A DNA stretch of 64,000 nucleotides from Herbidospora cretacea. GTDB taxonomy: Bacteria; Actinomycetota; Actinomycetes; Streptosporangiales; Streptosporangiaceae. The first letter of the stretch is position 1; each line of letters opens with the position of its first letter. The DNA lies in assembly GCF_001570605.1 (NCBI RefSeq), contig NZ_BBXG01000002.1:94549-158548 (forward strand). Reading direction: 5' to 3'. Below are positions 9,899-55,554 of the stretch, piece after piece. A model generated the notes under the pieces. It was given only the letters and a program-made list of their open reading frames with translations, searched no databases and was not told where the DNA came from. The translations under genes were made by a program, and so were the position numbers.

Positions 9899-9968
9899 TC
9901 CTCCTTCCCTGGCAGGCGCTCCGACCGGAGCGCCCGATGCCGCACGCCCTCATCCAGACAGGACCACC

Positions 9969-10880: not shown

Positions 10881-10895
10881 TCACCGATTTTGACT

Positions 10896-10910
10896 GTCAT
10901 TAATCATGAC
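10896..10910. promoter_or_regulatory. Inverted repeat upstream of the monooxygenase-like gene
   Basis: GTCAT-TAATC-ATGAC, a perfect 5-bp inverted repeat with an AT-rich spacer, lies 15 bp before the start at 10926. In this GC-rich region the AT-rich patch is notable. It may be an operator overlapping the promoter. Confidence 0.4.
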
Positions 10911-10925
10911 TATATCGTGGCCGTT

Positions 10926-11213: not shown

Positions 11214-11283
11214 CCGATGCCATCAAAACCTACCTTCGCCTGGTTGAACCGCCCTTGCCACCCGCCCGCGTAGCGTCGGAGCC

Positions 11284-11640: not shown

Positions 11641-11643
11641 CGG

Positions 11644-12690: not shown

Positions 12691-12735
12691 GCCGCTCCGG
12701 TGTCACGGACGCCAGCGTAACGAGCCGCCCCCTCG

Positions 12736-15036: not shown

Positions 15037-15090
15037 CTTCGTGATGAGGCGGTCAAAGCGCCCAACCGTAGCGAGTGGACAGGAGTTTGA

Positions 15091-15531: not shown

Positions 15532-15670
15532 GGATCTTCCCCTTTCCGGGTCGTGGCAGGACACTTATCGATGACATTACCCACGCGTTTTCCGACAACG
15601 GCCCACGGGGCCGTCGTGGGCATACAAGGGAATGCCGCGCAACCTCCCGGCCGGGAAAAGCGCATTCGAC

Positions 15671-16250: not shown

Positions 16251-16745
16251 ACCTTCGCCGAGGAGGGCGCGGGCGTCCCGATCGACGAGATCGCCCGCTG
16301 GGCCGGGGTCGGCGCGGGCACGATCTACCGCCACTTCCCCACCAAGGAGTCGCTGTTCCAGGCGATCGTGGCCGACCGGCTGCGGCAGGTGGCCGAGCGG
16401 GCGCGCGACCAGGCGGCGCTCGACCCGGGAGAGGGTCTGTACGCCTTCCTCACCCACATGGCCGAACAGGGCGCGACCGACCTGGGCCTCACCGAGGCGT
16501 TCGCCGGGATCGGATTCGACCTGGCCACGGCCCTGCCCGAGGTCGAGAAGGAGTTCACCGACCTGATGGCCGACCTCCTCGCCCAGGCCCGGCGCGCGGG
16601 GACCGTGCGATCCGATGTGGACGTGGCCGACGTCCAGACCCTGATCGTCGGCCTCCAGGCGATGAGGCGCTTCAGCGGCGACAGCCAGGTGATGCGGGTG
16701 ATCCGGGCCGGCCTCACCCCAATGAGGGGGCCGAACGCCGTTTGA
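16251..16745 (+). pseudogene. TetR-family regulator lacking its N terminus
   Basis: The rightward frame reads ETFAEEGAGVPIDEIARWAGVGAGTIYRHFPTKESLF, the turn and recognition helix of a TetR DNA-binding domain, followed by the ligand domain to residue about 165. The usual 15-20 residues before FAEEG (the first helix with its arginines) are missing, cut at the junction with the SDR remnant. An ATG at 16236 lies in the reversed SDR sequence and could start a protein lacking helix 1. The repressor is likely nonfunctional. Confidence 0.7.
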
Positions 16746-16791
16746 GAGAGTGGAAGGACGTCGCCTCTTCGTCTCCAGGAAGGAGAAGATC

Positions 16792-17841
16792 ATGTCTTCT
16801 CCGCTCGGCAGTTGGGTGGGCACCGACTACGCGGTCGTCGCCGAGTTCGGCGCCATGATGCCGACCGGCGTGACCGTGACCGACGAAGGCCGCCTCTTCG
16901 TCTCCTTCCCACGGTGGGGCGACGAGGTGCCCTACACCGTCGCGGAGGTCGTCAAGGGCGAGGCGGTGCCCTATCCCGACCTCGCGTACAACACCGGCAC
17001 CCTGGTGTCGGTGCAGAGCGTCATCACCGACCCGGAAGGACACGTGTGGCTGCTCGACACGGGCAGCCTCGCCTTCCAGCCCTGGCTGGAGAACGGCCCG
17101 AAACTCGTCGAGGTCGACCCCGCCACCGACCGGGTCGTCAGGGTCATCCCGCTCGACCCGGCCGCCGCCACCCGCACGACCTACCTCAACGACGTGCGCT
17201 TCGACTTCTCGCGGGGATCGAGCGGATACGCGTACCTGACCGACTGCGCCCCCGAAGGCGCGCTGATCGTCGTCGACCTGGCCACCGGGGAGATGTGGCC
17301 CCGGCTGCGCGGCCACAAGAGCACCTTGGCGGTGCCCGGGTTCCGCGCGATCGTGCAGGGCGTCGTCCGCGAGAACTACCAGGTCGGCGTGGACGGAATC
17401 GCCCTGGGCGCCGACGGCTCCCGCCTGTTCTACTGCCCGCTGTCCAGCAGACGCCTGTACAGCGTGGCGGCCGACGCCCTGGTCGACCGCTCCCTGACCG
17501 ACGAGCAGGTCGCGGCCACGGTCGTGGACCTGGGCGACAAGGGCGCCTCCGACGGCCTCGAATCCGACACCGACGGAGCCGTGTACGCCACCGCCTACGA
17601 GCACAGCGCCGTCGTCAGACGCGACCCCGACGGCCGCTGGTCGACGCTCCTGCACGGCCCGGCCCTGCTCTGGCCGGACACCCTGGCCCTGGCGAGCGAC
17701 GGTTTCCTGTACGTCAGCGTGAACCAGTTGCCGCGAACCCCGCTGTTCAACGACGGCACCGATGCGAGGGTGCCGCCCTACCAGGTCATCCGCGTCGACG
17801 TCGGCGCCCACCCGATCCGCCTGGGCACGCAGACCCGCTGA
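16792..17841 (+). CDS. MRJP/NHL-type propeller protein
   Basis: 349 residues with propeller blades like those of major royal jelly / L-dopachrome tautomerase-related proteins: PTGVTVTDEGRLFVSFPRWGD, SVITDPEGHVWLLDTGS, TTYLNDVRFDFSRGSSGYAYLTDC, QVGVDGIALGADGSRLFYCPLSSRRLY and DTLALASDGFLYVSVNQLPR. There is no signal peptide, so it acts in the cytoplasm. AAGGAG sits 8 bp before the ATG. Many bacterial members are predicted lactonase-like enzymes, unproven. Its end overlaps the convergent membrane gene by 64 bp. Confidence 0.78.
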   Translation: MSSPLGSWVGTDYAVVAEFGAMMPTGVTVTDEGRLFVSFPRWGDEVPYTVAEVVKGEAVPYPDLAYNTGTLVSVQSVITDPEGHVWLLDTGSLAFQPWLENGPKLVEVDPATDRVVRVIPLDPAAATRTTYLNDVRFDFSRGSSGYAYLTDCAPEGALIVVDLATGEMWPRLRGHKSTLAVPGFRAIVQGVVRENYQVGVDGIALGADGSRLFYCPLSSRRLYSVAADALVDRSLTDEQVAATVVDLGDKGASDGLESDTDGAVYATAYEHSAVVRRDPDGRWSTLLHGPALLWPDTLALASDGFLYVSVNQLPRTPLFNDGTDARVPPYQVIRVDVGAHPIRLGTQTR

Positions 17842-18800
17842 GTACGGCGCAGGTAGGACCACGCGGCCGCGCCCAGCGCGACGCCGTACACGGCGAAGGG
17901 GCCGAGCCCGAACCAGGTGACCAGAAGGGCGTCTTCCGGGGTGGGGAAGTCACCCCGGGGGACGGTCACCACCCCCGCCGAGGCGAGCCCCGCGTAGACC
18001 ACCCCGACCACTCCGTAGGGCGCGAGTGTGGCGGCTCCGATCAGCGCGGGGGTGAGCGGCAGCCAGCGAGGCACCCGCCTGCCGCGCACCGCGAGCCCCC
18101 ACGGCCGGGTCAGGCCGAAGAGGAGGACCACTCCGAGCACGGCCAGCAGCGCCGTGGCGTCGATGCCCCAACGCTCCAGGGTGAGCCACACCCCCGAGGC
18201 GCCGTTGCGTTCGGCCGTCGCCAGCATCTCCGCTCCGCTGATCCCGGCGATGGTGCCGCCCAGCGCCCAGACCGTCTTCATGGCCGCGTACGGCAGGAAC
18301 GACACGGCCCCCGTGTAGGCGAGCAGGCGGATGCGCCGCGGCGCGGCCGTGGGCTCCGGCCGGCTCCACTCGGTCGCGGAGGTGTGCACGTCGCCGCAGC
18401 GCGGACAGCCGCCGTGTGCGGCGGAGCGGTAGGAGCGAGCCACGGCGATGAGCAGGACCACTCCGACCGCGGCGAGCGACCGGTTGGCGGTAGCCGTCCA
18501 ACTGTCTACGGTCTGGTTGAAGACGAGAGTGATCACGTCCATCAGCAGGCCGAACGCGGCCACACCGCTCAGTACGGACAGCCCGAGAACGACCCGCCGG
18601 CCCCAGGGCTGCGAGGCGGCCGAGGCCGCGACCGCCGCCAGGACGGCGATGGCCACGACGACCCAGTTCAGGCCCACCGGCAGCGGCTCGGCGGCGCGGT
18701 AGAACAGCGCGGTCCCGGACAGCGCGGAGACCAGGCCGAACGCTCCGTACACCGCCGCCCATCCGAAGAGCGCGTATCGGTTCCACGACCCTCCACGCAT
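17778..18800 (-). CDS. Polytopic membrane protein, unknown
   Basis: 340 residues with about eight hydrophobic helices (YALFGWAAVYGAFGLVSALSG, LNWVVVAIAVLAAVAASAAS, WGIDATALLAVLGVVLLFGL, and others) and one soluble loop around residues 130-155 carrying a CPRCGDVH pair of cysteines. The family is not one I can name. Its C terminus overlaps the convergent propeller gene by 64 bp. An in-frame ATG at 18809 is another possible start. Confidence 0.7.
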   Translation of the reverse strand: MRGGSWNRYALFGWAAVYGAFGLVSALSGTALFYRAAEPLPVGLNWVVVAIAVLAAVAASAASQPWGRRVVLGLSVLSGVAAFGLLMDVITLVFNQTVDSWTATANRSLAAVGVVLLIAVARSYRSAAHGGCPRCGDVHTSATEWSRPEPTAAPRRIRLLAYTGAVSFLPYAAMKTVWALGGTIAGISGAEMLATAERNGASGVWLTLERWGIDATALLAVLGVVLLFGLTRPWGLAVRGRRVPRWLPLTPALIGAATLAPYGVVGVVYAGLASAGVVTVPRGDFPTPEDALLVTWFGLGPFAVYGVALGAAAWSYLRRTQRVCVPRRIGWAPTSTRMTW

Positions 18801-18975
18801 GATCCGCAACTTAGCCCGGAGCTCCTGTGGCGGAGCTGAGACGGGCTGAGAGCAGTCACAGGGCCGGGCCGGTTACCGCGTGCGCAGTACTGCCGATCGC
18901 CTGCGTACAGCGGACGACGGGCGGTGGGCCCGGTGGACATGATCGTGCTTTCTCGGCTCGGGAGGCACGGAAATC

Positions 18976-19830
18976 ATGACCAGCGATCAGAGCCGGTGGG
19001 CGCCGACCATCTTGTGGATCATCATCGGTCTCCTGTTGATCTTGATGCTGACCCGGAATCTCATCTCCCACGGCATCGGCGGCGGCGTCAGCTTGCTCGT
19101 CCAGACGGTGCTGCTGACGGCGTTCACCCTGCTGCACGGCTCCCGCCGCTACGGCCGGCGGGCGATTCTCCTCTACTACGCGGTCACGCTGGTCGTCAGC
19201 AACGTCCTGGAGAACCTGTCCATCCTCACCGGCTTCCCGTTCGGCGACTACCACTACACGACGGGCCCGCAGCTCTTCCACGTACCGCTGGCGATCGGGC
19301 CCTTCTACGCGGCCGTCGGCTACATGGCCTGGACGATCGCCGCGCTGCTCAACGGCGAGGTCCACCGCGGGTCGAGCCGGTCGACGACCATCGGGACACC
19401 GGTGATCGCGTCGTTCGCCATGGTCGCCTGGGACCTGGCCATGGATCCCACCCGGGCCACCATCCAGCGGTTCTGGATCTGGGAGGACAGCGGCGGCTTC
19501 TTCGGCGTGCCCCTGGTCAACTTCCTCGGATGGTCGCTGACGACCTACCTGTTCTTCCAGCTCTTCGCGCTCCACCTGCGCCGCCGCGGTTCGGCGCCGA
19601 CGACCTCGCCTGTCCAACCCCTGCTCCTGTACGGAGCCACCGCCGCCACGTTCGTCCTGGACTACCTGACCGGGGAACGCACGACTGTGACCGACGCCCT
19701 GGGCCAGACCTGGCGCACGGCCGACATCTACGAGACCTCGGTGCTGAACACCATCTACGGCATGGTCTTCATCACCGTCCTTGCGGCGCTCAGCCTGGTC
19801 CGGCGACGCGGCTCCAACCTGGTCCTATAG
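18976..19830 (+). CDS. CruF/DUF422-like carotenoid biosynthesis membrane protein
   Basis: 284 residues with about seven membrane helices. The segment VVSNVLENLSILTGFPFGDYHYTTGPQLFHVPLAIGPFYAAVGYMAW matches the conserved N-x-E-x-x-G/FPFGxYxY pattern of the DUF422 family, which includes CruF-type carotenoid hydratases. WDLAMDP, shared by this family, is also present. No other carotenoid genes lie nearby, so the substrate is uncertain. The following APC permease starts 38 bp later in the same direction. Confidence 0.7.
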   Translation: MTSDQSRWAPTILWIIIGLLLILMLTRNLISHGIGGGVSLLVQTVLLTAFTLLHGSRRYGRRAILLYYAVTLVVSNVLENLSILTGFPFGDYHYTTGPQLFHVPLAIGPFYAAVGYMAWTIAALLNGEVHRGSSRSTTIGTPVIASFAMVAWDLAMDPTRATIQRFWIWEDSGGFFGVPLVNFLGWSLTTYLFFQLFALHLRRRGSAPTTSPVQPLLLYGATAATFVLDYLTGERTTVTDALGQTWRTADIYETSVLNTIYGMVFITVLAALSLVRRRGSNLVL

Positions 19831-19868
19831 CCTGCGCGATAGCGATCCGCCGGCGCTGGGAGTGAGCC

Positions 19869-21122
19869 ATGAGCACGTACCCCGAGGCGCTAAAGCGGCG
19901 GCTGGGAGTGTTCGACGCCGTGATCGTCGGCCTCGGCTCGATGATCGGGGCCGGGATCTTCGCCGCGCTCGCCCCCGCCGCCTCGGCGGCCGGATCCGGG
20001 CTCCTGCTCGGGCTGGCCCTCGCCGCGGTGGTCGCCTACTGCAACGCCACGTCGTCCGCACGGCTCGCCGCCCGCTATCCCCAGTCCGGCGGGACCTACG
20101 TCTACGGCCGGGAACGGCTGGGCGAGTTCTGGGGCTACCTGGCCGGATGGGCCTTCGTGATCGGCAAGACCGCGTCGTGCGCGGCGATGGCCCTGACGGT
20201 CGGCTCCTACGTGTGGCCCGGCCAGGAACACGCGATCGCCGTCGCGGCGGTGGTGGCGCTGACCGCCGTGAACTACCTGGGAATCCACAAGTCCGCGCTC
20301 CTGACGCGCGTGATCGTCGCCGTGGTCCTGGCAGTCCTCGCCGCCGTGGTGACCGCCTGCCTCACCAGCGGCGTCGCCGACGCGGCCCGGCTGGACATCG
20401 GCGCGGACGCCACCTTCGCCGGGGTGCTCCAGGCGGCCGGCCTGCTGTTCTTCGCCTTCGCCGGGTACGCGCGCATCGCCACGCTCGGCGAGGAGGTCCG
20501 CGACCCCGCCCGGACCCTCCCCCGCGCCATCCCGCTGGCGCTCGGCATCACCCTGGTCGTCTACGCGTCGGTCGCCGTCTGCGTCCTGCTGGTCCTCGGC
20601 CCCGGCCCGCTGGCCCACACCACCGCTCCGCTGGTCGAGGCCGTCCGGGCGGCCGGCGTCCCGAACCTGGCCCCTGTCGTGCAGGTCGGCGCGGCGGTCG
20701 CCGCACTCGGCTCGCTGCTCGCGCTGATCCTGGGCGTCTCGCGCACCACCCTGGCGATGGCGCGTGATCGGCACCTGCCACACGTCCTGGCCGCCGTCCA
20801 CCCCCGCTACCAGGTGCCCCACCGCGCCGAACTCGCCGTCGGCGCGGTCGTCGCGGTCCTGTCCGCCACGACGGACGTACGTGGCGCGATCGGCTTCTCG
20901 TCCTTCGGCGTGCTGGTCTACTACGCCGTCGCCAACGCGTCCGCCTGGACCCTGAGCCCCGCCGAGGGCCGCCCGGCCAGGATCATTCCGATCGTCGGCA
21001 CGGCGGGCTGCCTGGTCCTCGCCTTCGCCCTGCCCCTGGGCTCCGTGCTGACGGGAGCGGCGGTGATCGCGGCGGGCGCCGCCGTGTACGGCCTGCAAAA
21101 AGCACTCACTCCCCGCGTTTGA
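19869..21122 (+). CDS. APC-family amino acid permease
   Basis: 417 residues, about twelve helices. The first helix has the substrate-binding glycine motif VGLGSMIGAGIFAALAP, typical of the APC superfamily, and helix 2-3 the conserved ATSSARLAARYPQSGGTYVYGRERLG. It should move amino acids or amines by proton symport or exchange. It lies 38 bp after the CruF-like gene, perhaps co-transcribed. The substrate cannot be told. Confidence 0.87.
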   Translation: MSTYPEALKRRLGVFDAVIVGLGSMIGAGIFAALAPAASAAGSGLLLGLALAAVVAYCNATSSARLAARYPQSGGTYVYGRERLGEFWGYLAGWAFVIGKTASCAAMALTVGSYVWPGQEHAIAVAAVVALTAVNYLGIHKSALLTRVIVAVVLAVLAAVVTACLTSGVADAARLDIGADATFAGVLQAAGLLFFAFAGYARIATLGEEVRDPARTLPRAIPLALGITLVVYASVAVCVLLVLGPGPLAHTTAPLVEAVRAAGVPNLAPVVQVGAAVAALGSLLALILGVSRTTLAMARDRHLPHVLAAVHPRYQVPHRAELAVGAVVAVLSATTDVRGAIGFSSFGVLVYYAVANASAWTLSPAEGRPARIIPIVGTAGCLVLAFALPLGSVLTGAAVIAAGAAVYGLQKALTPRV

Positions 21123-32209: not shown

Positions 32210-32252
32210 GTGGAGCCTAGGAGATTCGAACTCCTGACATCCTGCTTGCAAA
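32210..32252. repeat. attL: left 43-bp attachment repeat
   Basis: Identical to 48262-48304. It begins within the tRNA 3' acceptor strand and ends in the anticodon stem, and includes the T arm. The adjacent sequence at 32253 diverges at once. This copy lacks the CCA-type flank present at the right-hand copy, so it is the displaced partial tRNA. Confidence 0.92.
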
Positions 32253-34352: not shown

Positions 34353-35120
34353 TCAATCGGGAATCTTGAACGTGTAGGACCACTCGAAACGTGATGCCGC
34401 ATGAACGCCTCTGGCGAACTCGACCAGCCGACCGTCTTCGGCGAACGTCTGCCGCCGGAGCACCACGACGGGTTCGCCGGCGGGCAATCCCAAAGTCTCG
34501 GCCTCATCTGGCGTCGGCATACGTGCGTGAATTGTCTCGGTCATGGTGTCTGGTTCTAGGCCCTGGATCGTCAGAACGGCGAAGCCACCACCACGGCCCG
34601 CTGGTCCGGGTGTCGGGTCGACCAGCGGAGTGCCTTGCACGTCCTCAGGACGGTAGTAGCTGGTCAACGTGTGCGTGGGAGAGTCCCCTTCCTTGACCAG
34701 CCGTGAACGCTCGTACACCTGAGTTCCGACGTCGAGCCCGAACGCCTGGGACACCTCGGCATCGGCTTCGACCAGGCGAACCGTCTGGGTCTGGTCGGCT
34801 GGCGTCCATTCTCGACCCGAGGCCTCGCGATCGGCAGCGAACGCCACAAGCCCGCCGAACTTCCACTTGCTCTTGGCGTAGCGCTCCACCCCCAGTCGCT
34901 TCATGGGAGGGCGTTCCCGAACGACAGTTCCCCGTCGCCGAACGGGCGTTACCAGTCCTTCGGCTTCAAGGAGCCGAACGGCTTGTCGAACGGTCTTGAT
35001 GTTGACTTCGTGGCGATCGGCCAGCTCCTCCTGCTTCGGCAGCGTTGAACCTGCCGGGTAGTCGCCTCGCCTGATGCTGTCTCGAAGGAGTTCGGCCAGC
35101 TCTCGGTATCCGGTGACCAT
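34353..35120 (-). CDS. GntR/HutC-family repressor, KorSA-like
   Basis: 255 residues. Winged helix: ELAELLRDSIRRGDYPAGSTLPKQEELADRHEVNIKTVRQAVRLLEAEGLVTPVRRRGTVV. The UTRA ligand domain follows and ends GEPVVVLRRQTFAEDGRLVEFARGVHAASRFEWSYTF. In pSAM2 and related AICEs a protein of this kind (KorSA) silences transfer and excision. The divergent region to its right holds two AATAGAGC palindromes over a promoter for the transfer operon, which fits that role and autoregulation. Confidence 0.85.
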   Translation of the reverse strand: MVTGYRELAELLRDSIRRGDYPAGSTLPKQEELADRHEVNIKTVRQAVRLLEAEGLVTPVRRRGTVVRERPPMKRLGVERYAKSKWKFGGLVAFAADREASGREWTPADQTQTVRLVEADAEVSQAFGLDVGTQVYERSRLVKEGDSPTHTLTSYYRPEDVQGTPLVDPTPGPAGRGGGFAVLTIQGLEPDTMTETIHARMPTPDEAETLGLPAGEPVVVLRRQTFAEDGRLVEFARGVHAASRFEWSYTFKIPD

Positions 35121-35187
35121 GACATCTCCTCACTCGCTCATCCCTCAATAAGGGTAGCGATATTGGCTCCAACCAGCCATCTTAGAT

Positions 35188-35246
35188 AATAGAGCCAGCT
35201 CTATTGACAGTCCTCGCCCCATACTCCCTAATAGAGCTAGCCCTAA
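35188..35246 (+). promoter_or_regulatory. Divergent operator/promoter with two AATAGAGC palindromes
   Basis: AATAGAGC-CA-GCTCTATT (35188-35205) is a perfect 8-2-8 palindrome; AATAGAGC-TA-GCCCTA (35230-35245) is a second copy, 42 bp on. Between them a rightward -35 TTGACA (35204-35209) and a TAATA-type -10 (about 35228-35234, spacing 18-19) overlap the operators. A GntR regulator bound here would repress both itself and the rightward AICE operon. Confidence 0.65.
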
Positions 35247-35455: not shown

Positions 35456-35498
35456 GCCCTGATGGTCGTAGGCGGGGTTCGACTCCCCGCCGGGGCAC
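35456..35498 (+). repeat. tRNA-3'-half-like repeat, copy 1
   Basis: Contains GGCGGGG-TTCGACT-CCCCGCC, a 7-bp stem with a perfect T-loop, preceded by a variable-loop-like GATGGTCG and followed by an acceptor-like CCGGGGCAC. Copy 2 at 36338-36381 is identical except TA versus CAA. A matching 5' half is absent upstream. Together the copies bracket three small genes. Confidence 0.7.
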
Positions 35499-35545
35499 CT
35501 TCGATCTTTCATCACCCCTCCCTGCATCAAGGAGCCCTTAGTCTC

Positions 35546-35926
35546 ATGCCCGCTGTCCGCATCGAGTCGTTCGGCTATCTGCACGCTGATCCGCCGACCG
35601 CGCATCTGGTCATCGACCTGCGCCAGCACTTCCGTGACCCGCACGTCTCGCCTGAGCTGCGGCACATGACCGCCCACGATGAGCCGGTCAGGACCACGGT
35701 CCTGAACACCGCCGGCATCACCGACCTGGTGAACGCCACTGCCGCCGCTGTGACCGCTTTCCTGTCCGGCCCCAGCGCCGGACAGGTCACGGTCGCTGAT
35801 GGGTGCGCCGGCGGTCGGCACCGCGCTCCGGTCTTCGCCATGGAGCTTGCCGACCGGCTGCGCCGTGCCGGACTGACCGTCGAACTGGAACACCGCGACC
35901 TGGACAAACCCGTCGTTCAGCGCTGA
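35546..35926 (+). CDS. Standalone RapZ C-terminal domain protein
   Basis: 126 residues consisting only of the C-terminal domain of RapZ-type proteins: SFGYLHADPPTAHLVIDLRQHFRDPHVSPELRHMT, then VADGCAGGRHRAPVFAMELADRLRRAGLTVELEHRDLD. The GCxGGxHRAP phosphate-binding loop is intact. Whole RapZ is a nucleotide/RNA-binding adaptor; the lone C-terminal domain is common in actinomycete elements, with unknown role. AAGGAG precedes the ATG at 35546. It is the first gene of the KorSA-controlled operon. Confidence 0.8.
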   Translation: MPAVRIESFGYLHADPPTAHLVIDLRQHFRDPHVSPELRHMTAHDEPVRTTVLNTAGITDLVNATAAAVTAFLSGPSAGQVTVADGCAGGRHRAPVFAMELADRLRRAGLTVELEHRDLDKPVVQR

Positions 35927-35965
35927 GAGCCCACAGCCTCTCACCAACCCCTGGAAGGAAAGATT

Positions 35966-36157
35966 GTGATCAACGCCAATGGCCGGATCGTCAGCGCCGA
36001 ACAGGACCTCAGCGTGAACATCGCCGGGGACATCATCGGCGACATCGGGGTCATCATCAGCGGGAACACCGGCCCCGTCCACCTGGGAACAGGCAACGTC
36101 TACACCGGCGTGACCGTCATCGAGAACGACATCCACACCGATCGGCGCGGGCGATGA
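35966..36157 (+). CDS. 63-residue protein with RHIM-like core
   Basis: The second half reads DIGVIISGNTGPVHLGTGNVYTG. The V-H-L-G core, with Asn three residues on (TGN), matches the spacing of the RHIM-type amyloid core [IV]-Q-[IV]-G-x-x-N seen in RIPK1/3 and in bacterial pseudo-palindromic signalling motifs, with His for Gln. The first half is Gly/Ile-rich with no membrane helix. It is translationally coupled to the 58-residue gene by an ATGA overlap. Amyloid activity is untested and the match is short. Confidence 0.55.
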   Translation: MINANGRIVSAEQDLSVNIAGDIIGDIGVIISGNTGPVHLGTGNVYTGVTVIENDIHTDRRGR

Positions 36158-36330
36158 AGCGGCGCAAGGTCGTCCAGTTCTACAGCTCGACCACCAGCGA
36201 GACCTACATCGGCGACTGCCCGGGGTGGATCGCCCTCACCCGGCGGGCGCGGCCGGACCTGCGCGAACGGCGGGTCATCGCCTACGGCGGCGGTCCCTGG
36301 CTGTGCTGGAGTTGTCGCCCGTCTCACTGA
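36154..36330 (+). CDS. 58-residue basic protein, unknown
   Basis: MKRRKVVQFYSSTTSETYIGDCPGWIALTRRARPDLRERRVIAYGGGPWLCWSCRPSH. Arg-rich and ends in a C-x-x-C (CWSC). Coupled to the RHIM-like gene by ATGA. Not a family I recognise. The trailing C-x-x-C could bind zinc with the upstream CPGW cysteine. Confidence 0.5.
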   Translation: MKRRKVVQFYSSTTSETYIGDCPGWIALTRRARPDLRERRVIAYGGGPWLCWSCRPSH

Positions 36331-36337
36331 TCTACCA

Positions 36338-36381
36338 GCCCTGATGGTCGCAAGGCGGGGTTCGACTCCCCGCCGGGGCAC
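36338..36381 (+). repeat. tRNA-3'-half-like repeat, copy 2
   Basis: Same sequence as 35456-35498 with CAA in place of TA. It lies 8 bp after the stop of the 58-residue gene and 100 bp before the next gene. The two copies are in direct orientation 882 bp apart, enclosing the RapZ-C, RHIM-like and 58-residue genes. Confidence 0.7.
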
Positions 36382-36487
36382 TCCCGGCCAGCTGGCCGGT
36401 CTCCCCATCTACGCCAAGAGGGCAGCCCCCCAATCCGCCAAGACAACGGGGCTGCCCTCACTCCCATCAAAAGGAGCTGTCTCCATC

Positions 36488-36625
36488 ATGGCTTTACTCC
36501 TGCGTTTCCTGCGGGCGGTCTGCCCGTCCGACTGCCGCAACGGTCAGATCTGGAACCCGGGCTCGGGGCCTTACCCGTGCCCCTTCTGCTGGCCGAACGC
36601 CGCGCAGAGCGGCGGCCCCCGATGA
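36488..36625 (+). CDS. 45-residue peptide with cysteine pairs
   Basis: MALLLRFLRAVCPSDCRNGQIWNPGSGPYPCPFCWPNAAQSGGPR, starting at an ATG with AAGGAG 10-14 bp upstream. The cysteines lie in two pairs (CPSDC and CPFC), so a small zinc ribbon is likely. It ends by an ATGA overlap with the WhiB gene. It begins the second half of the rightward operon, after repeat copy 2. Confidence 0.6.
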   Translation: MALLLRFLRAVCPSDCRNGQIWNPGSGPYPCPFCWPNAAQSGGPR

Positions 36626-36960
36626 CCCCGGCCGCGCCCGGCCGCGTGCTTCGCCAGGTCGGCGAAGTCCCTACCGTCCGGTTGCTCGACCTGATCACCT
36701 GGGACCTTCCGGCCGATCTGGTGAAGGGTGCGGCGTGCGGGGCTGACCCCGACCTGCACACCGGCCCCGACCTGTTCGACCACGAGTCCGCTCAGGAGCG
36801 GGCGGCCCGGGAAGACGTCGCCAAGAGCGTGTGCGCCGACTGCCCCGCCCGCCTCCACTGCCTGGCGGCGGCCCTGCGCATCCGTCCCGAGACCGGCGTC
36901 TGGGCTGGCCTAACCGCTGACGAACTCGCCGAGATGACCCGCCCGGGGCTGGCCTCATGA
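36622..36960 (+). CDS. WhiB-family iron-sulfur regulator
   Basis: 112 residues. Four cysteines with Wbl spacing (AACGADPD, then VCADCPARLHCLA) and the turn GVWAGLTADE are present, so the protein should bind a 4Fe-4S cluster and act with sigma factor region 4. The N-terminal extension (PGRVLRQVGEVPTVRLLDLITWDLP) is typical of element-borne Wbl proteins. ATGA overlap with the previous gene and again with the next shows tight coupling. Confidence 0.85.
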   Translation: MTPAAPGRVLRQVGEVPTVRLLDLITWDLPADLVKGAACGADPDLHTGPDLFDHESAQERAAREDVAKSVCADCPARLHCLAAALRIRPETGVWAGLTADELAEMTRPGLAS

Positions 36961-40198: not shown

Positions 40199-40584
40199 TG
40201 GGCAGCGGACAGGCCCGCCTGGACCAGATCGCCTGCATCGAGTTCCACGGCAAGGTCCCCTCCAAGATCGCCGCCTACGCCACCGCGACCCAGCTTTTCG
40301 CGCACGACCTGGCGCGGGAGCTGGACGCCGCCGCCAACGCCGCCGAGAACGCGATGCGGCAGCTCAAGGGCCACCCGCTGCTGATGGGCATCGACGTGCG
40401 CGCCCGCGCCTGGCGCGTGGCCCGCGAACTCAACGACGCCCGGGAACTGGTGCTCGGCATCAGCGCCGAGGCGGTCAAGTTCAACGTCCAGTTCCGACAG
40501 GAGTTCCTGGAGGCGCTGGAAGCCCTCAGCAAGCGCGAGCGCGACACCAAGAGCAAGGACTACAAGGGAAAGGTTGATCTGTGA
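40198..40584 (+). CDS. TraA-like protein, second paralog
   Basis: 128 residues, all-helical, MGSGQARLDQIACIEFHGKVPSKIAAYATATQLFAHDLARELDAAANAAENAMRQLKGHPLLMGIDVRARAWRVARELNDARELVLG, paralogous to the gene at 39681. It starts within the stop of the TraB fragment (TGATG) and ends in a GTGATG overlap with full-length TraB, so it is co-translated with the translocase. Role in transfer is inferred from position. Confidence 0.65.
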   Translation: MGSGQARLDQIACIEFHGKVPSKIAAYATATQLFAHDLARELDAAANAAENAMRQLKGHPLLMGIDVRARAWRVARELNDARELVLGISAEAVKFNVQFRQEFLEALEALSKRERDTKSKDYKGKVDL

Positions 40585-42881
40585 TGCGCAAGAGTTCGGC
40601 CCCGTCCCTGCAACTGGTGCAGGACGCCTCCATGGAGCGGCTGGCCGCCGCTGCCGCCTCCAAAATCGGGGTGCTGGTCCCGCCGTGGCTGATCCTGGGT
40701 GCCGAGGCCGCCACGGCGGCCATCTCCCACGCGCTGTGGGGTGAGGCCCCGGCGGTGACGTGGGCGGCCATGGGCTCCACGCTCGCCACCACCGTCCTGA
40801 CCGGTCTGACGTGGGCGATCACCCACCAGCGCAGGATGATCGGACGGCTGCACGCCACCTTGACCACCGCCGCCGCCGGCGGCTGGTTCACCACCGTCAC
40901 CGTCACCGGCCTGGACACGCCCGTCGTGACCGGCGCGCTGTTCTTCGGCGGCGGCGCACTGGCGCTGTCGTGGAACATCCGCACTGTCATCCGCTCTGGC
41001 CCCGGCAGCGAGGACGGGGACGGCGGGGACACGCTGGCCCGGCTGTTTTCCCGCCGCCGGGACGAGGCCGGTCTCAAGGGCGCCCGGGTGCGGACGACCG
41101 AGGTCACCGACAACAAGGTCAAGGGCAAGATGCAGCTGCCGCCCGGGGAGAAGACAGCCGACGACGCGATCAAAGCCGCCGACCGGCTCGAATCGGGGAT
41201 GCAGCTGCCGCCCGGCAGCGTGACCATCGCCCGCGACGACGACCGCGCCGACCAGGCCGTCATCACCGTGTCCGACCCGCGCGCCATCCGCCGGCCGATC
41301 CCCTGGCCCGGCCCCTCCCACCCCGGCGCGTCGGTGGACAAGCCGCTGCGGATCGGGCTCTACCAGGACGGCGACGACGTCGAATACCGGTTCGTCGGCC
41401 ACCACTTGCAGATCATGGGGATGACCGGTTCCGGCAAGTCGATCGGAGGCGCGTGGAACATCATCGGCGAACTGATCAGCCGCAAGGACGTCGCGGTGTT
41501 CTCCATCGACCTCAGCAAGGACGACCAGACCATGGGTCCGCTGCGGGAAGGGCTGCACCGCTTCGAGACCGGCAAGGCCGGTGCGGTGGACCTGATCCGC
41601 GCCATGCACAAGGCCATCCCGGCGCGGACCAAGTGGCTGGCCGAACGTGGCTACAGCAACTGGGAACCCGGCTGCGGGCTGACCTACTGGTTCCTGCACG
41701 TGGAGGAACTCCCCAAGCTGGTCGGCGAACTCGGGGGCGAGGATGAGGAACGCCTCGGGGAGATCCTCAAGGAGATCCGATCGGCTGGTGGCGGTGTGAT
41801 CCTTTCGCTTCAGCGGGCTGACTACACGCAGATCCCGACGCTGTTCCGCTCGCAGATGGCCAAGATGTGCTTCGGGCTGTCCGACCCCGACGACGTCAAG
41901 TACGGCACCTCAGCGCGGCAGCGCAAGGCCGACGTGGAGCCGCACGAGTGGGAAGACCACTACCCCGGCATGGCCTACCTGGACGGCAAGAGCGTCCGCA
42001 CCACCCACTACGCGATGCCGCTGCGCACCTACTCGTGGGGGCGCAACAGCGCCGAGGCCCGCGCCGCGATGATGGCCCACGCCGCCGCCTTCCCCGCCGC
42101 CGGCAAGAAGGTCGACCCGTTCACCGCTGGTATCGCCCGCCCGACCGGCCCGGCCCGCACCCCGGCCCCGCCGCTCACCCCGCCGCCCGCCGCGTTCGAC
42201 GAGGGGCAGGACGACGGGTCGGAGCGTGAGGAGTTCGCGGCCGAGTTCGCTGAGCTGCTGGCCGCCGCCGCATCGCTGGTCATCGCCCGCCAGAACGCCT
42301 CCCCGGCTCTGCTGCAAAGCAGGCTTCGCATCCCTGCCGAGGACTGCCTTCGCCTCCTGGAGGCCCTGGAGCGCAAAGACATCGTCGGCCCGCCCCACCC
42401 CGGCGGGGACGAGCGACCGGTTCTCATCGCAGCCGATGACACCGCCACCATCCTGAGCGTGGTCGACCACCTGCGCACCACCGGCGATCCGGTCGCTGAG
42501 GCGCTGGCGGGCAGTGAGGACCCCGACCCGTCCGTCACCGCCGGGCACGGCGACCGGGTGCAGGAGCCGACCCAGGCCGAAGCCGACGCCTACCAGGCCG
42601 ACGCGCCCGCCCCGAAGATGGCCCCCGAGGCAGCCCGCGGCTTGGTCTACGCCTGGCTGCGCCAGCGCCGACAAGCCGGTCGGCCCACCTTCACCGCCAC
42701 CGACCGCGACCTGACCGCCATCCGCACCCAGACCGGCAACAGCCGCGCCTGGACCTACAAGATCCTGACCGCCCTCCACCAGCGGGGCGTCCTGGACGTC
42801 GACACCTCCGACAGCGTCCGCACCTACACCATCAAGGACCTGTCCCCCCTCGACCGCGAGGACCACGCCACCGCCGCCTGA
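40584..42881 (+). CDS. FtsK/TraB-type conjugal DNA translocase
   Basis: 765 residues (766 if the GTG at 40581 is used). N-terminal membrane region (TAAISHALWGEAPAVTWAAMGSTLATTVLTGLTWAIT, GALFFGGGALALSWNI). Motor domain with Walker A GMTGSGKSIGG near residue 280 and a hydrophobic Walker B-like segment ending HVEELPK near 375. The C-terminal region has a winged-helix-like part (PALLQSRLRIPAEDCLRLLEALERKDIVGP) that could read the clt repeats. It is the single protein needed for double-stranded AICE transfer from cell to cell. It forms the end of the rightward transfer operon. Confidence 0.85.
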   Translation: MRKSSAPSLQLVQDASMERLAAAAASKIGVLVPPWLILGAEAATAAISHALWGEAPAVTWAAMGSTLATTVLTGLTWAITHQRRMIGRLHATLTTAAAGGWFTTVTVTGLDTPVVTGALFFGGGALALSWNIRTVIRSGPGSEDGDGGDTLARLFSRRRDEAGLKGARVRTTEVTDNKVKGKMQLPPGEKTADDAIKAADRLESGMQLPPGSVTIARDDDRADQAVITVSDPRAIRRPIPWPGPSHPGASVDKPLRIGLYQDGDDVEYRFVGHHLQIMGMTGSGKSIGGAWNIIGELISRKDVAVFSIDLSKDDQTMGPLREGLHRFETGKAGAVDLIRAMHKAIPARTKWLAERGYSNWEPGCGLTYWFLHVEELPKLVGELGGEDEERLGEILKEIRSAGGGVILSLQRADYTQIPTLFRSQMAKMCFGLSDPDDVKYGTSARQRKADVEPHEWEDHYPGMAYLDGKSVRTTHYAMPLRTYSWGRNSAEARAAMMAHAAAFPAAGKKVDPFTAGIARPTGPARTPAPPLTPPPAAFDEGQDDGSEREEFAAEFAELLAAAASLVIARQNASPALLQSRLRIPAEDCLRLLEALERKDIVGPPHPGGDERPVLIAADDTATILSVVDHLRTTGDPVAEALAGSEDPDPSVTAGHGDRVQEPTQAEADAYQADAPAPKMAPEAARGLVYAWLRQRRQAGRPTFTATDRDLTAIRTQTGNSRAWTYKILTALHQRGVLDVDTSDSVRTYTIKDLSPLDREDHATAA

Positions 42882-44412: not shown

Positions 44413-45573
44413 ATGACCACGTCACCACCCGCAAGCGGCGCTGACCTACTCGACGAACTGCGCGCCGCGCTGACCCGCTACGTCATCCTGCCCAGCGAAC
44501 ACGCCGCCAACGCCGTCACGCTCTGGGTCGCGGCCACGCACGCCCAACCCGCGTGGGCTCACGCGCCCCGGCTGGTCATCCGCGCTCCCGAGAAGCGGTG
44601 CGGGAAATCCCGGCTGCTGGACATCGTGGAAGCCACCTGCCACGACCCGTTCATCACGGTCAACAGCAGCAGCGCGGCGGTCTACCGCTCCATCAGCAGC
44701 GACCCGCCCACCATGCTGGTCGATGAGGCCGACACCATCTTCGGCCCCAAAAGCGACGGGAACGAGGACCTTCGCGGGCTGCTCAACGCCGGGCACCAGC
44801 GCAACCGCCCGGCCAAGAGGTACGACGCCACGACCGGCCGTGTCGAGTCCATTCCGACCTTCTGCATGGCGGCTCTGGCGGGCATCGGAGCGATGCCCGA
44901 CACCATCGAAGACCGCGCGGTCGTGGTCCGCATGCGCCGGCGCCTGACCGGTGAGACCGTCGCCCCCTATCGTCACCGCCGCGACCGCCCGCCGCTGCGC
45001 CAGCTGGCTGAGGACATCGCGGCCTGGCTGCGCGCCGACCTGGCCGCGCTGGAACAGGCCGAACCGCCCATGCCGGTCGAAGACCGGGCCGCCGACACCT
45101 GGGAGTCCCTGGTGGTCGTGGCCGACTTCGCTGGCGGCCACTGGCCCGACCGCGCCCGGCAGGCCGTACTCGCGCTGACCGCCGAGGCCGACGACAACGG
45201 CCAGCCCTCACCGCGTATCCGCCTGCTGGCCGACTGCCGGACCGCGTTCGGCACCGACACCGCTCTCCCGACCGCCGTCCTGCTGGAGCGGCTCAAGGAC
45301 GACCCCGAATCCCCGTGGGTCGACTACGGCCCCGCCGGGCTGACCGCCATGAAGCTGGGCGTCCTGCTGCGCGAGTACGACATCCGCTCCACCACCATCC
45401 GTTTCCCGCCCCCAACCGGACAGGCGAAGGGCTACCAGCGGGCCGACTTCGCCGACGCCTGGCAGCGCTACTGCCCCGAGATCGAGACCGCCGAACGGGC
45501 CGCACTCATCCCCCTGGACCGGGGAAGCCGTCCCGGTCGTACCAGCCTCAACATCGCAGCTCAGAGGGGATGA
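44413..45573 (+). CDS. DUF3631 ATPase, replication partner
   Basis: 386 residues. Walker A-like RAPEKRCGKSRLLDIVEATC, Walker B TMLVDEADTIFG, then sensor-like IPTFCMAALAGIGAMPDTIEDRAVVVRMRR, followed by the DUF3631 region to the C terminus. DUF3631 often lies C-terminal to helicase/primase modules of actinomycete elements. Directly downstream of prim-pol, it is probably the helicase or loader of the replicon. It ends 142 bp before xis. Confidence 0.82.
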   Translation: MTTSPPASGADLLDELRAALTRYVILPSEHAANAVTLWVAATHAQPAWAHAPRLVIRAPEKRCGKSRLLDIVEATCHDPFITVNSSSAAVYRSISSDPPTMLVDEADTIFGPKSDGNEDLRGLLNAGHQRNRPAKRYDATTGRVESIPTFCMAALAGIGAMPDTIEDRAVVVRMRRRLTGETVAPYRHRRDRPPLRQLAEDIAAWLRADLAALEQAEPPMPVEDRAADTWESLVVVADFAGGHWPDRARQAVLALTAEADDNGQPSPRIRLLADCRTAFGTDTALPTAVLLERLKDDPESPWVDYGPAGLTAMKLGVLLREYDIRSTTIRFPPPTGQAKGYQRADFADAWQRYCPEIETAERAALIPLDRGSRPGRTSLNIAAQRG

Positions 45574-45582
45574 GGCTTTTCC

Positions 45583-45655
45583 GGTGGTACGGCACAAGCC
45601 GTACCACCAAAAAAGCCGTACCGGGCCTGACCTGCAAAAACAAGCCTGGTACGGC
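45583..45655. promoter_or_regulatory. GGTACGGC palindromes upstream of xis-int
   Basis: GGTGGTACGGC-ACAA-GCCGTACCACC (45583-45608) is a perfect 11-bp inverted repeat. Further half-sites GCCGTACC (45615-45622) and GGTACGGC (45648-45655) face each other. All lie between the DUF3631 gene and xis, so they are candidate operators controlling excision genes. A hairpin role is possible too. Confidence 0.55.
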
Positions 45656-45714
45656 TGTTACGGCTACCCCCCTCAAACCTGACACGCCTGCTCTCAAAAT
45701 CGTGGAGAACCGCC

Positions 45715-45933
45715 ATGAACCCCGGACAGAGCAAGCCCCATTCCGACGACCTAGAGCTGTACCGCATCCCCGATGTCATGCGCCTGCTCAAGCTCAGCCG
45801 CAGCAGCGTCTACGAGCAGTTGCGGAGCGCGCGACTGCGCTCCGTCCGTCAAGGACGTTTGCGACTCGTACCCGCGAAGGCCATCCGCGAGTACATCGCC
45901 CTCTTGGAGACCGAAGCAAAGGAGGCCGCGTGA
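45715..45933 (+). CDS. xis: Excisionase (Xis), AlpA/MerR-like HTH
   Basis: 72 residues, LELYRIPDVMRLLKLSRSSVYEQLRSARLRSVRQGRLRLVPAKAIREYIALLE, the classic winged-helix excisionase with HTH LKLSRSSVYEQLRSARL. The stop overlaps the integrase GTG by 4 bp, so the two are co-translated. It would bend attR/attL DNA to drive excision. Confidence 0.88.
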   Translation: MNPGQSKPHSDDLELYRIPDVMRLLKLSRSSVYEQLRSARLRSVRQGRLRLVPAKAIREYIALLETEAKEAA

Positions 45934-47099
45934 CCAAACGCAGGAGCAGAGGAGACGGCGGGCTCCATTGGGACCCCGTCCGCGAGCGCTGGATCGCTAC
46001 CGTGACGGTCGGCTATACCCCGGCCGGAAAGCGCATCGTCAAGAAGGCCAGCGACAAGGACAAGACGAAAGCGCGGGAAAAACTGAAGGCGATAATCAAG
46101 GATTACGAGGATGGACTCACCGCCAACTCACACAACTACACCGTTGCCGACACCGTGAAATACTGGCTTACTCACGGGCTTAAAGGCCGTGACCCGCGAA
46201 CGGTCACCCTCTACACGGAGTTCGCGGAGAACCACATCATCTCTGCCTTAGGCGCGAGGAAACTCCGAGACCTGTCAGTCGAAGACGTGGACAAATGGCT
46301 AGCGGACAAATCGGCTAGCCTAAGCACGCGAACCCTCAAGATGCTTCATTCGATCCTGAATCGAGCCGTAAAGAACGCGATGCGGCGCGACAAGGTCAAA
46401 CGGAACGTCGTGGACCTCTGCGAGGTGCCCGAGGGACGTGTAGGGCGCCCGTCAAAGGCGTTCACGCTCGATCAGGCTAGCGCTCTGCTGGCAGCAACCG
46501 AGCAAGCCCACGTACGTATGTGTGCCTATATCGTCCTGTCGCTACTCACGGGCGCTCGAACAGAAGAATTGCGAGCCCTTACGTGGCCCCACGTCGTAAC
46601 CTTCGACAAGGAGCACAAGGCATGGCGCCCGGTCGGGGACGCGGGATGGGGGCATGGAGAGTTCGCCATGTATGTATGGCGTTCGGTTCGGCGAAAGGGC
46701 GACACCAAGACGGCGAAATCCCGCCGGACTCTCAAGCTCCCTCAGCGGTGTGCGCGAGCATTACACGCGCTATGGGAATCACAGGATAACGACCGTCAGC
46801 AGCCCAACGCGGAATTAGTGTTCCGCACCCAGAATGGAACAGCTCTCAGCGCTGGAAACGTCCGCCGTGACTTCAGGAAGGTGGTCAACGCGGCCGGACT
46901 CGACGGCGATGCGTGGACTCCGAAGGAACTGCGACACAGCTTCGTGTCGCTGCTCTCAGACTCAGGCGTCCCCATCGAAGACATCTCGCGCCTAGTAGGT
47001 CACGCTAACACTGTGGTTACAGAGACCGTGTACCGTCACCAAATCCGCCCTGTCATGCAGGAAGGCGCGACGGCCATGGATGTCATCTTCCGAAGCTAA
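45930..47099 (+). CDS. int: Tyrosine integrase
   Basis: 389 residues from GTG 45930 with GGAGG upstream. N-terminal arm-binding part (SRGDGGLHWDPVRERWIATVTVGYTPAGKRIVKKAS), core-binding domain near 70-155 (TVADTVKYWLTHGLKGRDPRTVTLYTEF), then catalytic domain with Arg in LLTGARTEELRALTW, His-x-x-Arg in ELRHSFVSLL, GHAN (His) and the tyrosine in TETVYRHQ. It joins element and tRNA-Ala. The strong terminator at 47128 closes the transcript. Confidence 0.92.
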   Translation: MTKRRSRGDGGLHWDPVRERWIATVTVGYTPAGKRIVKKASDKDKTKAREKLKAIIKDYEDGLTANSHNYTVADTVKYWLTHGLKGRDPRTVTLYTEFAENHIISALGARKLRDLSVEDVDKWLADKSASLSTRTLKMLHSILNRAVKNAMRRDKVKRNVVDLCEVPEGRVGRPSKAFTLDQASALLAATEQAHVRMCAYIVLSLLTGARTEELRALTWPHVVTFDKEHKAWRPVGDAGWGHGEFAMYVWRSVRRKGDTKTAKSRRTLKLPQRCARALHALWESQDNDRQQPNAELVFRTQNGTALSAGNVRRDFRKVVNAAGLDGDAWTPKELRHSFVSLLSDSGVPIEDISRLVGHANTVVTETVYRHQIRPVMQEGATAMDVIFRS

Positions 47100-47185: not shown

Positions 47186-48049
47186 TTATTCCCAGCCCGA
47201 ACCTACTTGGTTGGCTAGCGGGCGAAGGGCCACTAGCATGACAGCCGCTTGATTGTTCTTGCTCCACGTCGCACCCACCATTCTCGCTTTCGTGGGTAGT
47301 CCGGATTGCTTTAGGGCCTCCGGCCCGACTGGCGCTGTGTCCATTCCGTTGACAATCAAGGACGGAATAAAGACGTCGTCGATGTTCCCGAATACTTGAG
47401 CCTCTCCGGAACCGTCCGGAAGCATGTGAGATGAAACACAAGATTCGCTAACGAGATCTTGGGATCTCATTGCGGCCTTGCGGCTTACATTGGCAGCATG
47501 CGCGCGGAGCGCCTTTGGTGTTCGACGCCTCGACATCTCATCCGCCAAGTCAGCTATCTCGTCCTCATCTGTAGCGCTCTTTTGTCCAGTAACAAAGCAC
47601 TCGACACCTCTTATTCGCACATGGCTGACGAATAACTGATCGGCCGGTACAGGCAGATCCGGACCTCGGAGGCTCTGAAAGTTTGAAATCGTATATATAT
47701 GCGGGATCTGATTACTGTAAGCAAGAAGCGTAAATGTGTGATGTCTCTGACTTGCCGAAATTCGTTTTAGCCAGACACTCCCTTTGCTTTGTATCTGATC
47801 AACCACTTCCTTCATAGACCGATTTCCCGGCTTATGAGAAAGTACTCGCCCGAGCCATTCTGCCGTATTGTGGTTGCCCGCTTCAGCGATGCCCGTATAG
47901 CAAAGCAGCCCCGACCAGTCCCGATAGTGAAGTACCACTTGCTTTTGCGCGGAGCTGCTACGGATCTGTGCAGTGCCAGCGTACGTCAGGCGAAAATCTG
48001 AAGTTTGAACAGCAAGGGCTCGTGTGGCGACGGAAATATTAAGCGTCAT
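47186..48049 (-). CDS. Ntn-hydrolase-like (proteasome-fold) cargo protein
   Basis: 287 residues taking the ATG at 48049. After Met removal, Thr is residue 1 and D17 and R19 fall exactly where proteasome beta subunits have them (TLNISVATRALAVQTSDFRL), with a lysine at 35 near the usual K33 site (AQKQVVLHY). VVLHYRDWSGLLCYTGIAE resembles the following strand. The C-terminal half is not recognised. An open frame extends to 48184 but the added 45 residues read unlike protein and would bury the nucleophile. GC is about 50%, much lower than the backbone. A free-standing peptidase- or amidase-like enzyme is inferred. Confidence 0.6.
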   Translation of the reverse strand: MTLNISVATRALAVQTSDFRLTYAGTAQIRSSSAQKQVVLHYRDWSGLLCYTGIAEAGNHNTAEWLGRVLSHKPGNRSMKEVVDQIQSKGSVWLKRISASQRHHTFTLLAYSNQIPHIYTISNFQSLRGPDLPVPADQLFVSHVRIRGVECFVTGQKSATDEDEIADLADEMSRRRTPKALRAHAANVSRKAAMRSQDLVSESCVSSHMLPDGSGEAQVFGNIDDVFIPSLIVNGMDTAPVGPEALKQSGLPTKARMVGATWSKNNQAAVMLVALRPLANQVGSGWE

Positions 48050-48202
48050 GTGATCTTCATCGCCTTCTACGCGATGGCCTTCATCAGCCTCTGAGCAATC
48101 GTTAAGCCGTGCGTGCCTAGGCAGAGGGCGACTGACTACAGGAGCAAGCGCAAGATGGCACGAGTGCTCGATGAACGTCATCACTTGGTCGTTCAGGGGA
48201 TA

Positions 48203-48259: not shown

Positions 48260-48335
48260 TGGTGGAGCCTAGGAGATTCGAACTCCTGACATCCTGCTTG
48301 CAAAGCAGGCGCTCTGCCAGCTGAGCTAAGGCCCC
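48260..48335 (-). tRNA. tRNA-Ala(UGC), CCA encoded
   Basis: Reverse complement starts GGGGCCTTAGCTCAG, has anticodon loop TTTGCAA (UGC), T arm GGAGTTCGAATCTCC and ends AGGCTCCACCA. Acceptor pairs are all complementary, including the G3-U70 pair that marks tRNA-Ala. CCA is encoded (48260-48262). The 5' half to the right of 48304 is host sequence; the last 43 bp are shared with attL. Confidence 0.95.
48262..48304. repeat. attR: right 43-bp attachment repeat
   Basis: Identical to 32210-32252. It covers the 3' 43 bp of the tRNA gene from the anticodon stem to the acceptor end, so integration rebuilds an intact tRNA on this side. Confidence 0.92.
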
Positions 48336-51071: not shown

Positions 51072-51153
51072 CAGCCGGAGGTACGCAGGATGACCCGGCT
51101 AGGTTCAGGTTCTACGGTGGAAAACACCATCAGGGCAGAACAATGGAGTTGGC

Positions 51154-55554
<4,401 letters not shown>

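Follow-up and report, generated by a model that had tools for sequence, protein, structure and literature searches.

The question raised by this locus is what two near-identical repeats do inside an actinomycete integrative and conjugative element (AICE) of Herbidospora cretacea. The window, the whole 64,000-nucleotide stretch that was analysed (contig NZ_BBXG01000002.1, positions 94,549 to 158,548), holds the repeats on its plus strand at 35456-35498 (43 nt) and 36338-36381 (44 nt), with three small genes between them. The initial annotation took the pair for direct repeats of a tRNA 3' half and offered two explanations: a small cassette moved by a tyrosine-recombinase core, or processing sites in an operon mRNA. 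The repeats themselves were borne out. They share an identical 29-nt block, are spaced 883 bp apart and are the sole two occurrences in the window (0.01 expected from shuffling); matches to them in the 8.28-Mb genome are limited to the same two copies. As described below, each repeat is a full mini tRNA-like fold without an anticodon arm rather than a tRNA 3' half. Such elements probably act as tRNA punctuation, in which host RNase P and RNase Z would excise the mimic and split an operon into separate mRNAs. The proposal of mRNA processing sites is well supported by covariation, strand, stop-to-start position and hairpins at the predicted new 5' ends.

The fold of the two window repeats

Element 1 (35456-35498, plus strand) starts with the 5' strand of an acceptor stem at 35456-35461, followed by a linker, a T-arm and the acceptor 3' strand, which runs to 35496; the discriminator A is at 35497 and a C at 35498. 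The predicted cuts are at 35455/35456 for RNase P and at 35497/35498 for RNase Z. For element 2 (36338-36381, plus strand) the corresponding cuts are predicted at 36337/36338 and 36380/36381. The elements score 67.7 and 67.5 bits, respectively, with model R1, whose training set includes both. In each, an acceptor stem of 5-6 bp pairs GCCCU(G) with (C)GGGGC, a D-loop-like linker GAUGGUCGNA carries UGGU (the linker of the two copies being GAUGGUCGUA or GAUGGUCGCAA), a 7-bp T-arm stem presents the loop UUCGACU, and an A and then a C stand behind the acceptor. The acceptor and T stems sum to a 12-bp stack, the length that a tRNA reaches as 7 + 5. The matching 5' half that had been thought missing lies in reduced form within each repeat, as the GCCCUG that pairs with CGGGGC and the D-loop-like UGGU linker. 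Linkers of 7-22 nt in the mini elements leave no room for an anticodon arm, and the excised product would not be a working tRNA.

ARAGORN reported only a tRNA-Ala in the window (48260-48335), and the repeats do not form the four-arm cloverleaf of an ordinary tRNA gene. An Rfam scan gave no tRNA (RF00005) match in the stretches scanned, neither repeat nor any of the four scanned phage stretches reached an Rfam gathering score, and no Rfam family for these elements was found.

Structural constraint and position outside the window

Pattern scans returned at least 119 stretches from named genomes and 81 from viral contigs, not all of which are elements; 165 of 215 pattern rows, with duplicates from overlapping loci included, passed a pairing filter. 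Alignment A1 consists of the 71 fully paired rows and is hence selected by pairing, which is not the case for a test of acceptor pairing on unfiltered matches. Among viral-contig matches chosen by the linker and loop motif only, all five acceptor pairs form in 46 of 51 (90%), compared with 7% and at most 20% for permuted partners. In alignment A3, which comprises 109 distinct copies and was fitted to the model, 457 cells are changed on both sides of a pair versus 129 in shuffles, and the covariation score is 0.897 versus at most 0.172 for slid partners. The tRNA-like fold is under structural constraint.

Four types of linker were distinguished: GATGGTCGNA, GACTGGCAGACA, AACGGTTTTC and a real small D-arm such as GCTC-TGGT-GAGC. 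Viral contigs also contain the second type, in 43 stretches, and the third, in 21; under a loose check the fold is present in 36 of 39 distinct matches to the former and in all 29 to the latter. Of the 62 linkers that belong to the non-A types, 44 contain YGGY (13.6 when shuffled, maximum 24), as do 41 of 58 once tRNA genes are removed, an enrichment that is expected if the linkers dock on the T-loop.

A structure-only descriptor, blind to the linker, was run on 14 complete actinophage genomes and gave 87 matches versus 5.7 in dinucleotide shuffles. Four of the matches are ordinary tRNA genes for Trp or Gln (Sheen 5649, Phlei 5841, Phlei 5974 and SWU2 5515), and a few more look like chance, consistent with the shuffled count. 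The descriptor missed an element in StAB that model R1 found. Control stretches from lambda (28.5 kb) and T7 (20 kb), 48.5 kb in all, contained no match. ARAGORN calls tRNAs over six of the 87 matches, the four ordinary genes and two doubtful ones. The doubtful calls lie over elements in the Trine stretch (3970-4038) and in another phage stretch (254-344); mini elements may be what lies behind calls of this kind in phage annotation.

The position of the matches was assessed with a codon-usage gene caller whose coordinates agreed with those on record for 20 VanLee genes. Indlulamithi and Konstantine, for which the caller fails or partly fails (85% and 37% called intergenic), were left out of the count. 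Among the 64 matches in the 12 genomes whose gene calls are reliable, 61 are intergenic and co-directional with the downstream gene (57 of 60 without tRNAs), and the intergenic share of these genomes is 7.5-18%. The 78 intergenic co-directional matches from all 14 phages, including the two with poor gene calls, lie a median of 11.5 nt from the upstream stop codon and 48 nt from the downstream start. Of 270 descriptor matches, from sets that share some phages, 243 lie between genes with the downstream gene on the same strand. Model R1 found 49 matches at E ≤1 in 14 phage stretches, all on the coding strand, each stretch having been oriented by one match of its own.

In annotated actinophage records the matches fall in unannotated gaps between co-directional genes; gaps of this kind, approximately 80-120 nt long, are unannotated in 14 records. 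By record annotation there are two exceptions: Journey13, where one match overlaps gene 74, and Trine, where three copies lie at or inside the start of gene 40. The Trine copies are arranged in tandem, approximately 110-120 nt apart (stretch positions 3764-4040), and the annotated start of gene 40 probably lies too far upstream. Gaps longer than 45 nt between listed genes were inspected by eye in five phages. The fold is present in 14 of 14 gaps within a 9-kb gene run of VanLee, in 12 of 12 in Indlulamithi (two of them longer or seen by eye alone), in seven of eight in Konstantine (one weak) and in seven of nine in Endor1; the fifth phage, Dagobah, is taken up below. The Konstantine stretch also has 1.5 kb between genes 44 and 45 (561-2117) that hold no annotated genes.

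The ends of the elements carry marks of tRNA processing. Among the 78 intergenic co-directional phage matches, the discriminator is a purine (A/G) in 72 and the next base is C in 70, and CCA is encoded in one; without the four tRNA genes, the counts are 68, 67 and 0 of 74. A 6-bp hairpin starts within 5 nt of the predicted new 5' end in 23 of 59 phage elements, from which tRNA genes were not removed, versus 1.4 in shuffles. The same test gave 20 of 111 in viral contigs (3.4 shuffled) and 24 of 83 in genome contigs (3.9 shuffled), and windows 10-100 nt further on gave 0-5, 3-14 and 2-10 in the phages, viral contigs and genome contigs, respectively. In the window, element 2 starts 7 nt past the stop codon (36328-36330) of the preceding 58-aa gene, and the hairpin CCGGCC-AGCT-GGCCGG (36384-36399, plus strand) starts 3 nt past the predicted new 5' end.

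Elements were also located in other AICEs. The 60 loci that hold a WhiB gene or a gene of cluster f5 were treated as AICE-like; 46 of them have one copy, nine have two, four have three and one has five, and the gene directly behind the last element is a conserved AICE gene (WhiB or f5) in 35. From these copy numbers and neighbors, small cargo genes sit between elements ahead of the transfer operon. A genome survey with model R1 (E 1e-4, strict filters) found the element in 30 of 295 genomes of one genus, probably Streptomyces as judged from a locus 81% alike to S. cellostaticus over 1.5 kb, and in five of 396 genomes across the phylum and three of 120 relatives, the genome of the window being counted in both. 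Several of the pattern matches outside the actinobacteria (Bacteroidales and others) fail the pairing filter, and by eye they look like tRNA or coding matches. A plasmid search gave one good match, on a plasmid of Gordonia bronchialis (94.7% over 38 nt, E 5e-8; two records); the remaining 16 records match weakly (E 0.004-0.6), and two of the weak matches lie under annotated erm genes.

Probable processing by tRNA enzymes and rival explanations

Under tRNA punctuation, the acceptor stem and T-arm would stack to the 12-bp length of a tRNA and the D-loop-like linker would be able to dock on the T-loop. Host RNase P would then cut at the 5' end of the acceptor and RNase Z behind the discriminator base, and the mimic would be excised. 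The upstream message would be released just past its stop codon, and the downstream message would begin upstream of its own ribosome site with a new 5' end that often coincides with a hairpin. In the AICE, two copies would separate a leader, a cargo message for the three enclosed genes, and a WhiB-Tra message, so that these could decay and be translated independently of each other. In phages the elements would punctuate non-structural, probably early, operons. In both settings, excision would separate modules that are translated as units, and an effect on expression is predicted.

The elements offer the 12-bp stack together with a T-loop, a GG that resembles the one of a D-loop and a 3' end of purine and C; they are without CCA, which inhibits RNase Z. 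In one study, RNase P recognizes the stack of T-stem and acceptor and can apparently do without the D-loop (PMC4919913); in another, it cuts other tRNA-like RNAs, including phage-derived ones (PMC11143913).

A longer cousin of the elements bears on the matter. In mycobacteriophage L5, the Pleft transcript starts at 51,672, is approximately 500 nt long, abundant and stable, and approximately 90% of it ends at 51,140-51,190 at no canonical stem-loop terminator; smaller, presumably processed species were seen, and a deletion of 51,195-51,407 was unobtainable (PMC5712189, as far as the text is accessible). In the related phage D29, a tRNA-like structure with the acceptor GGGTAG/CTACCC and the T-loop TTCGATT ends at 47,981, approximately 521 nt past a start that was deduced from how far it lies from the end of the genome. 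A corresponding structure in SWU1 ends at 51,314. Carried over from D29 and SWU1, these ends translate to approximately 51,151 and 51,137 in L5 if the right-end lengths agree. In nine related phages including D29, the acceptor is retained and the T-stem differs by compensatory changes; ARAGORN and Rfam both missed the D29 structure. It is a conserved, unannotated tRNA-like structure on the minus strand of D29 (approximately 47,980-48,103) and in relatives, at the end of the Pleft noncoding RNA and just before gene 89; shorter forms occur in that region of Bactobuster and BabyBack. The structure is a candidate answer to how the 3' end of cluster A Pleft RNA is formed, and it supports cleavage at the mini elements short of proof, since it is longer than they are and its position in L5 was carried over from relatives.

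Several observations weigh against tRNA punctuation. Cleavage is something that we infer for the window copies and for every mini element. Element 1 stands behind no gene, so its cleavage would fall within a leader instead of between two genes, and it has no hairpin at its predicted new 5' end, a feature found in a minority of the elements. The two window copies alone fold just 1.7-1.8 standard deviations below shuffles, and longer stretches around them just 0.3-1.0; because these scores are modest, the case rests on comparison and not on folding energy. The genome-contig set, which is less diverse, shows a smaller contrast in acceptor pairing (32 of 41, or 78%, versus 48% and at most 61% for permuted partners). 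C75 is not conserved, and an encoded CCA, which favors RNase P cleavage, is absent. The matches per phage range from 1 to 17, with three or fewer in eight of the 14, and in Dagobah the fold was seen in just two of ten listed gaps, so that use varies between phages. The Pleft structure is longer than the mini elements and was placed in L5 by way of SWU1 and D29, and the L5 authors read the 3' end as termination in the accessible part of their paper (PMC5712189). In Dagobah, the gaps at stretch positions 557-640, 890-958, 1148-1229 and 1663-1733 hold different GC-rich hairpins that are not tRNA mimics, so that two kinds of intergenic structure may be in use within a single phage.

Of the other explanations, a 3'-end cap is unlikely. 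RNase Z alone would cut, and the mimic, possibly CCA-tailed, would stay on the upstream mRNA and shield it from 3' exonucleases like the tRNA-like structures of plant viruses. The median of 11.5 nt between stop codon and element agrees with this, as does the stable and abundant L5 RNA that ends at a tRNA-like structure (PMC5712189, accessible part). The purine-C end, the 12-bp stack and the T-loop are, however, RNase P recognition features, and therefore the 5' cut should also happen; in addition, element 1 and others precede the first gene, where there is no upstream mRNA to shield (16 of 95 genome-contig matches have a divergent gene upstream). It is far less probable that the T-arm hairpin serves as a transcription terminator, attenuator or antitermination site. 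A hairpin between genes would suit this role, and termination at the related structure is what the authors of the L5 study assumed (PMC5712189). Intrinsic terminators, in the form of a GC hairpin followed by a T-run, were not detected in the window apart from one weak match overlapping the end of element 1 (0.6 expected), so that neither copy has a clear T-run behind it. Transcription in VanLee would also have 14 successive sites to pass in 9 kb. We know of no role in termination for the conserved linker and UUCGANU loop.

The mobile cassette proposed in the initial annotation, or more generally a module boundary where the repeats are DNA recombination sites for the entry and exit of cargo and any RNA fold is left over from a tRNA attachment core, is quite improbable, placed between the cap and the terminator. 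It does fit the distribution of copies: AICEs with one copy and no cassette exist, as had been anticipated (eight of the 60 AICE-like loci have a single element, a divergent gene upstream and no cargo), and 14 have 2-5 copies with varied small genes in between. Such empty sites do not show site-specific excision. The elements delimit exchangeable gene modules, and ordinary homologous exchange would explain that. Compensatory changes preserve the pairing as the sequence diverges, a constraint for which DNA recombination has no need; the fold is retained among the differing copies of a single phage; no recombinase is encoded between the window repeats; the attachment core of the AICE is a different sequence; and phages carry the element in long series, as in the 14 of 14 VanLee gaps. 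Least probable of all is a decoy, in which the free small RNA would titrate a tRNA-binding protein or a tRNA-cutting defence and sit in operons merely as a means of production. Several copies per phage in many genomes and the mimicry of a tRNA elbow would accord with it, and it leaves the placement at gene junctions with a hairpin behind unexplained, as it does sequences that differ freely.

A broader version of tRNA punctuation is rather doubtful. In this version the mini tRNA mimics would be a new and widespread RNA class in actinobacterial phages and conjugative elements, located at the junctions of early or transfer operons, in some phages at nearly every junction, such that early expression depends on the tRNA-maturation enzymes of the host. 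The excised mimic might itself be a product, for example a CCA-tailed decoy for tRNA-binding defence or quality-control factors.

The AICE, its genes and known systems

The AICE is bounded by a 43-bp direct repeat of the 3' half of tRNA-Ala, with one copy at its left end (32210-32252) and the probable attachment core at 48262-48304, inside the tRNA-Ala gene (48260-48335, minus strand). The window repeats were considered as the attachment core and rejected, the core being this different repeat and the elements lying away from the AICE ends. The interior contains TraB-like, Prim-Pol and WhiB genes, and the integrase is near the bounding repeat. A divergent GntR/UTRA regulator (34353-35120, minus strand; PF07702, PF00392) lies to the left of element 1. 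On the plus strand no gene was called between the two, a promoter-like match is present at 35163-35190 (0.2 expected), and element 1 is in the operon leader.

The first cargo gene encodes a 126-aa protein with a RapZ C-terminal domain (35546-35926, plus strand; PF22740, E 2.2e-26), in agreement with the first reading of the sequence. It is followed on the same strand by 63-aa (35966-36157) and 58-aa (36154-36330) open reading frames (ORFs), which were likewise as described. The RHIM-like label given to the 63-aa ORF was not confirmed by any model; its best Pfam match is Fil_haemagg (E 0.073). The family of the 58-aa ORF (cluster f19, six members) adjoins the element in other AICEs. An annotation of the cargo as defence genes was rejected: PADLOC matched RapZ-C to Cas1 just weakly (E 0.02, 0.053) and returned no match for any of the four further proteins. 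Stand-alone RapZ-C genes are recurrent AICE cargo and occur in nine viral-contig loci. RapZ-C adjoins the element in the AICE set, a set itself collected via the element; as a dedicated partner it was rejected, a clear element lying beside just one of the nine viral loci.

Behind element 2, the leader of the next gene forms a 12-bp hairpin, GAGGGCAGCCCC...GGGGCTGCCCTC (36418-36459, plus strand), with no T-run behind it. A 45-aa ORF with the ribosome site AAAAGGAG (36488-36625, plus strand), which was read from the sequence and not called by the gene finder, overlaps the start of the WhiB-like gene (36622-36960, plus strand; PF02467, E 2.4e-13; in a cluster of 40 members), the first conserved gene of the transfer operon. 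Further along the plus strand are a TraB/FtsK-like transfer protein (40584-42881; E 2.4e-120, under the family's cut-off) and the AICE integrase, a tyrosine recombinase (45315-47099; PF00589, E 1.3e-21) whose coding start may be 45930 (45930-47099 by the gene finder).

If the gaps between actinophage genes hold tRNA mimics, the mRNAs of these phages would be made by tRNA enzymes. This would account for separate mRNA ends that need neither promoters nor terminators, the open question in L5 and D29 included. The elements would also be natural substrates of minimal size for RNase P and RNase Z, and a compact tool with which to split operons. Annotators gain a model able to find the elements. A search of the open-access literature by title and abstract, with subscription papers and preprints outside it, found no description of this RNA class.

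Among known systems, the Pleft RNA of L5, D29 and StarStuff shares an actinophage RNA 3' end at a tRNA-like structure, a UUCGAUU T-loop and A-C behind the acceptor. It differs in being approximately 100-120 nt long with extra hairpins, and the accessible part of the report proposes termination and describes no tRNA-like fold (PMC5712189). The mascRNA/menRNA family (RF01684) is likewise a reduced tRNA-like RNA and is the best Rfam match of both repeats (E 0.17 and 0.56), at 23.3 and 21.4 bits versus a gathering score of 42.5; its members belong to animal long noncoding RNAs, whereas here there are several copies per operon. MALAT-1 and Men-beta RNAs are named among RNase P substrates in the accessible part of one study (PMC4919913). 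The tRNA-like domain of tmRNA (RF00023) resembles one Indlulamithi element at 25.6 bits (E 1.1e-6) and another at E 0.053. The score is below the gathering score of 47 bits, and an element of 45-50 nt is too short for a tag-coding loop.

With the tRNA genes that tyrosine recombinases use as attachment cores, the elements share the resemblance to a tRNA 3' half, and the AICE itself appears to use such a core in tRNA-Ala, from which the window repeats differ in sequence and place. In the early operon of T7, structured RNase III sites between genes split the polycistronic RNA into separate mRNAs. The elements would likewise be intergenic structured sites that split phage early RNA, with another enzyme and with a tRNA mimic instead of a long hairpin; T7 1-20000 gave no descriptor match. 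The principle of tRNA punctuation is known from mitochondria, where RNase P and RNase Z excise tRNAs between ORFs, and an anticodon-less mimic used in this way in phages and AICEs appears to be undescribed. In contrast to the mitochondrial case, the elements have no anticodon arm, are not translating tRNAs, belong to bacterial phage and AICE operons, and have cleavage as a prediction. In both, folds derived from the cloverleaf stand between co-directional genes on one long transcript, and processing rather than promoters would set the ends of the mRNAs.
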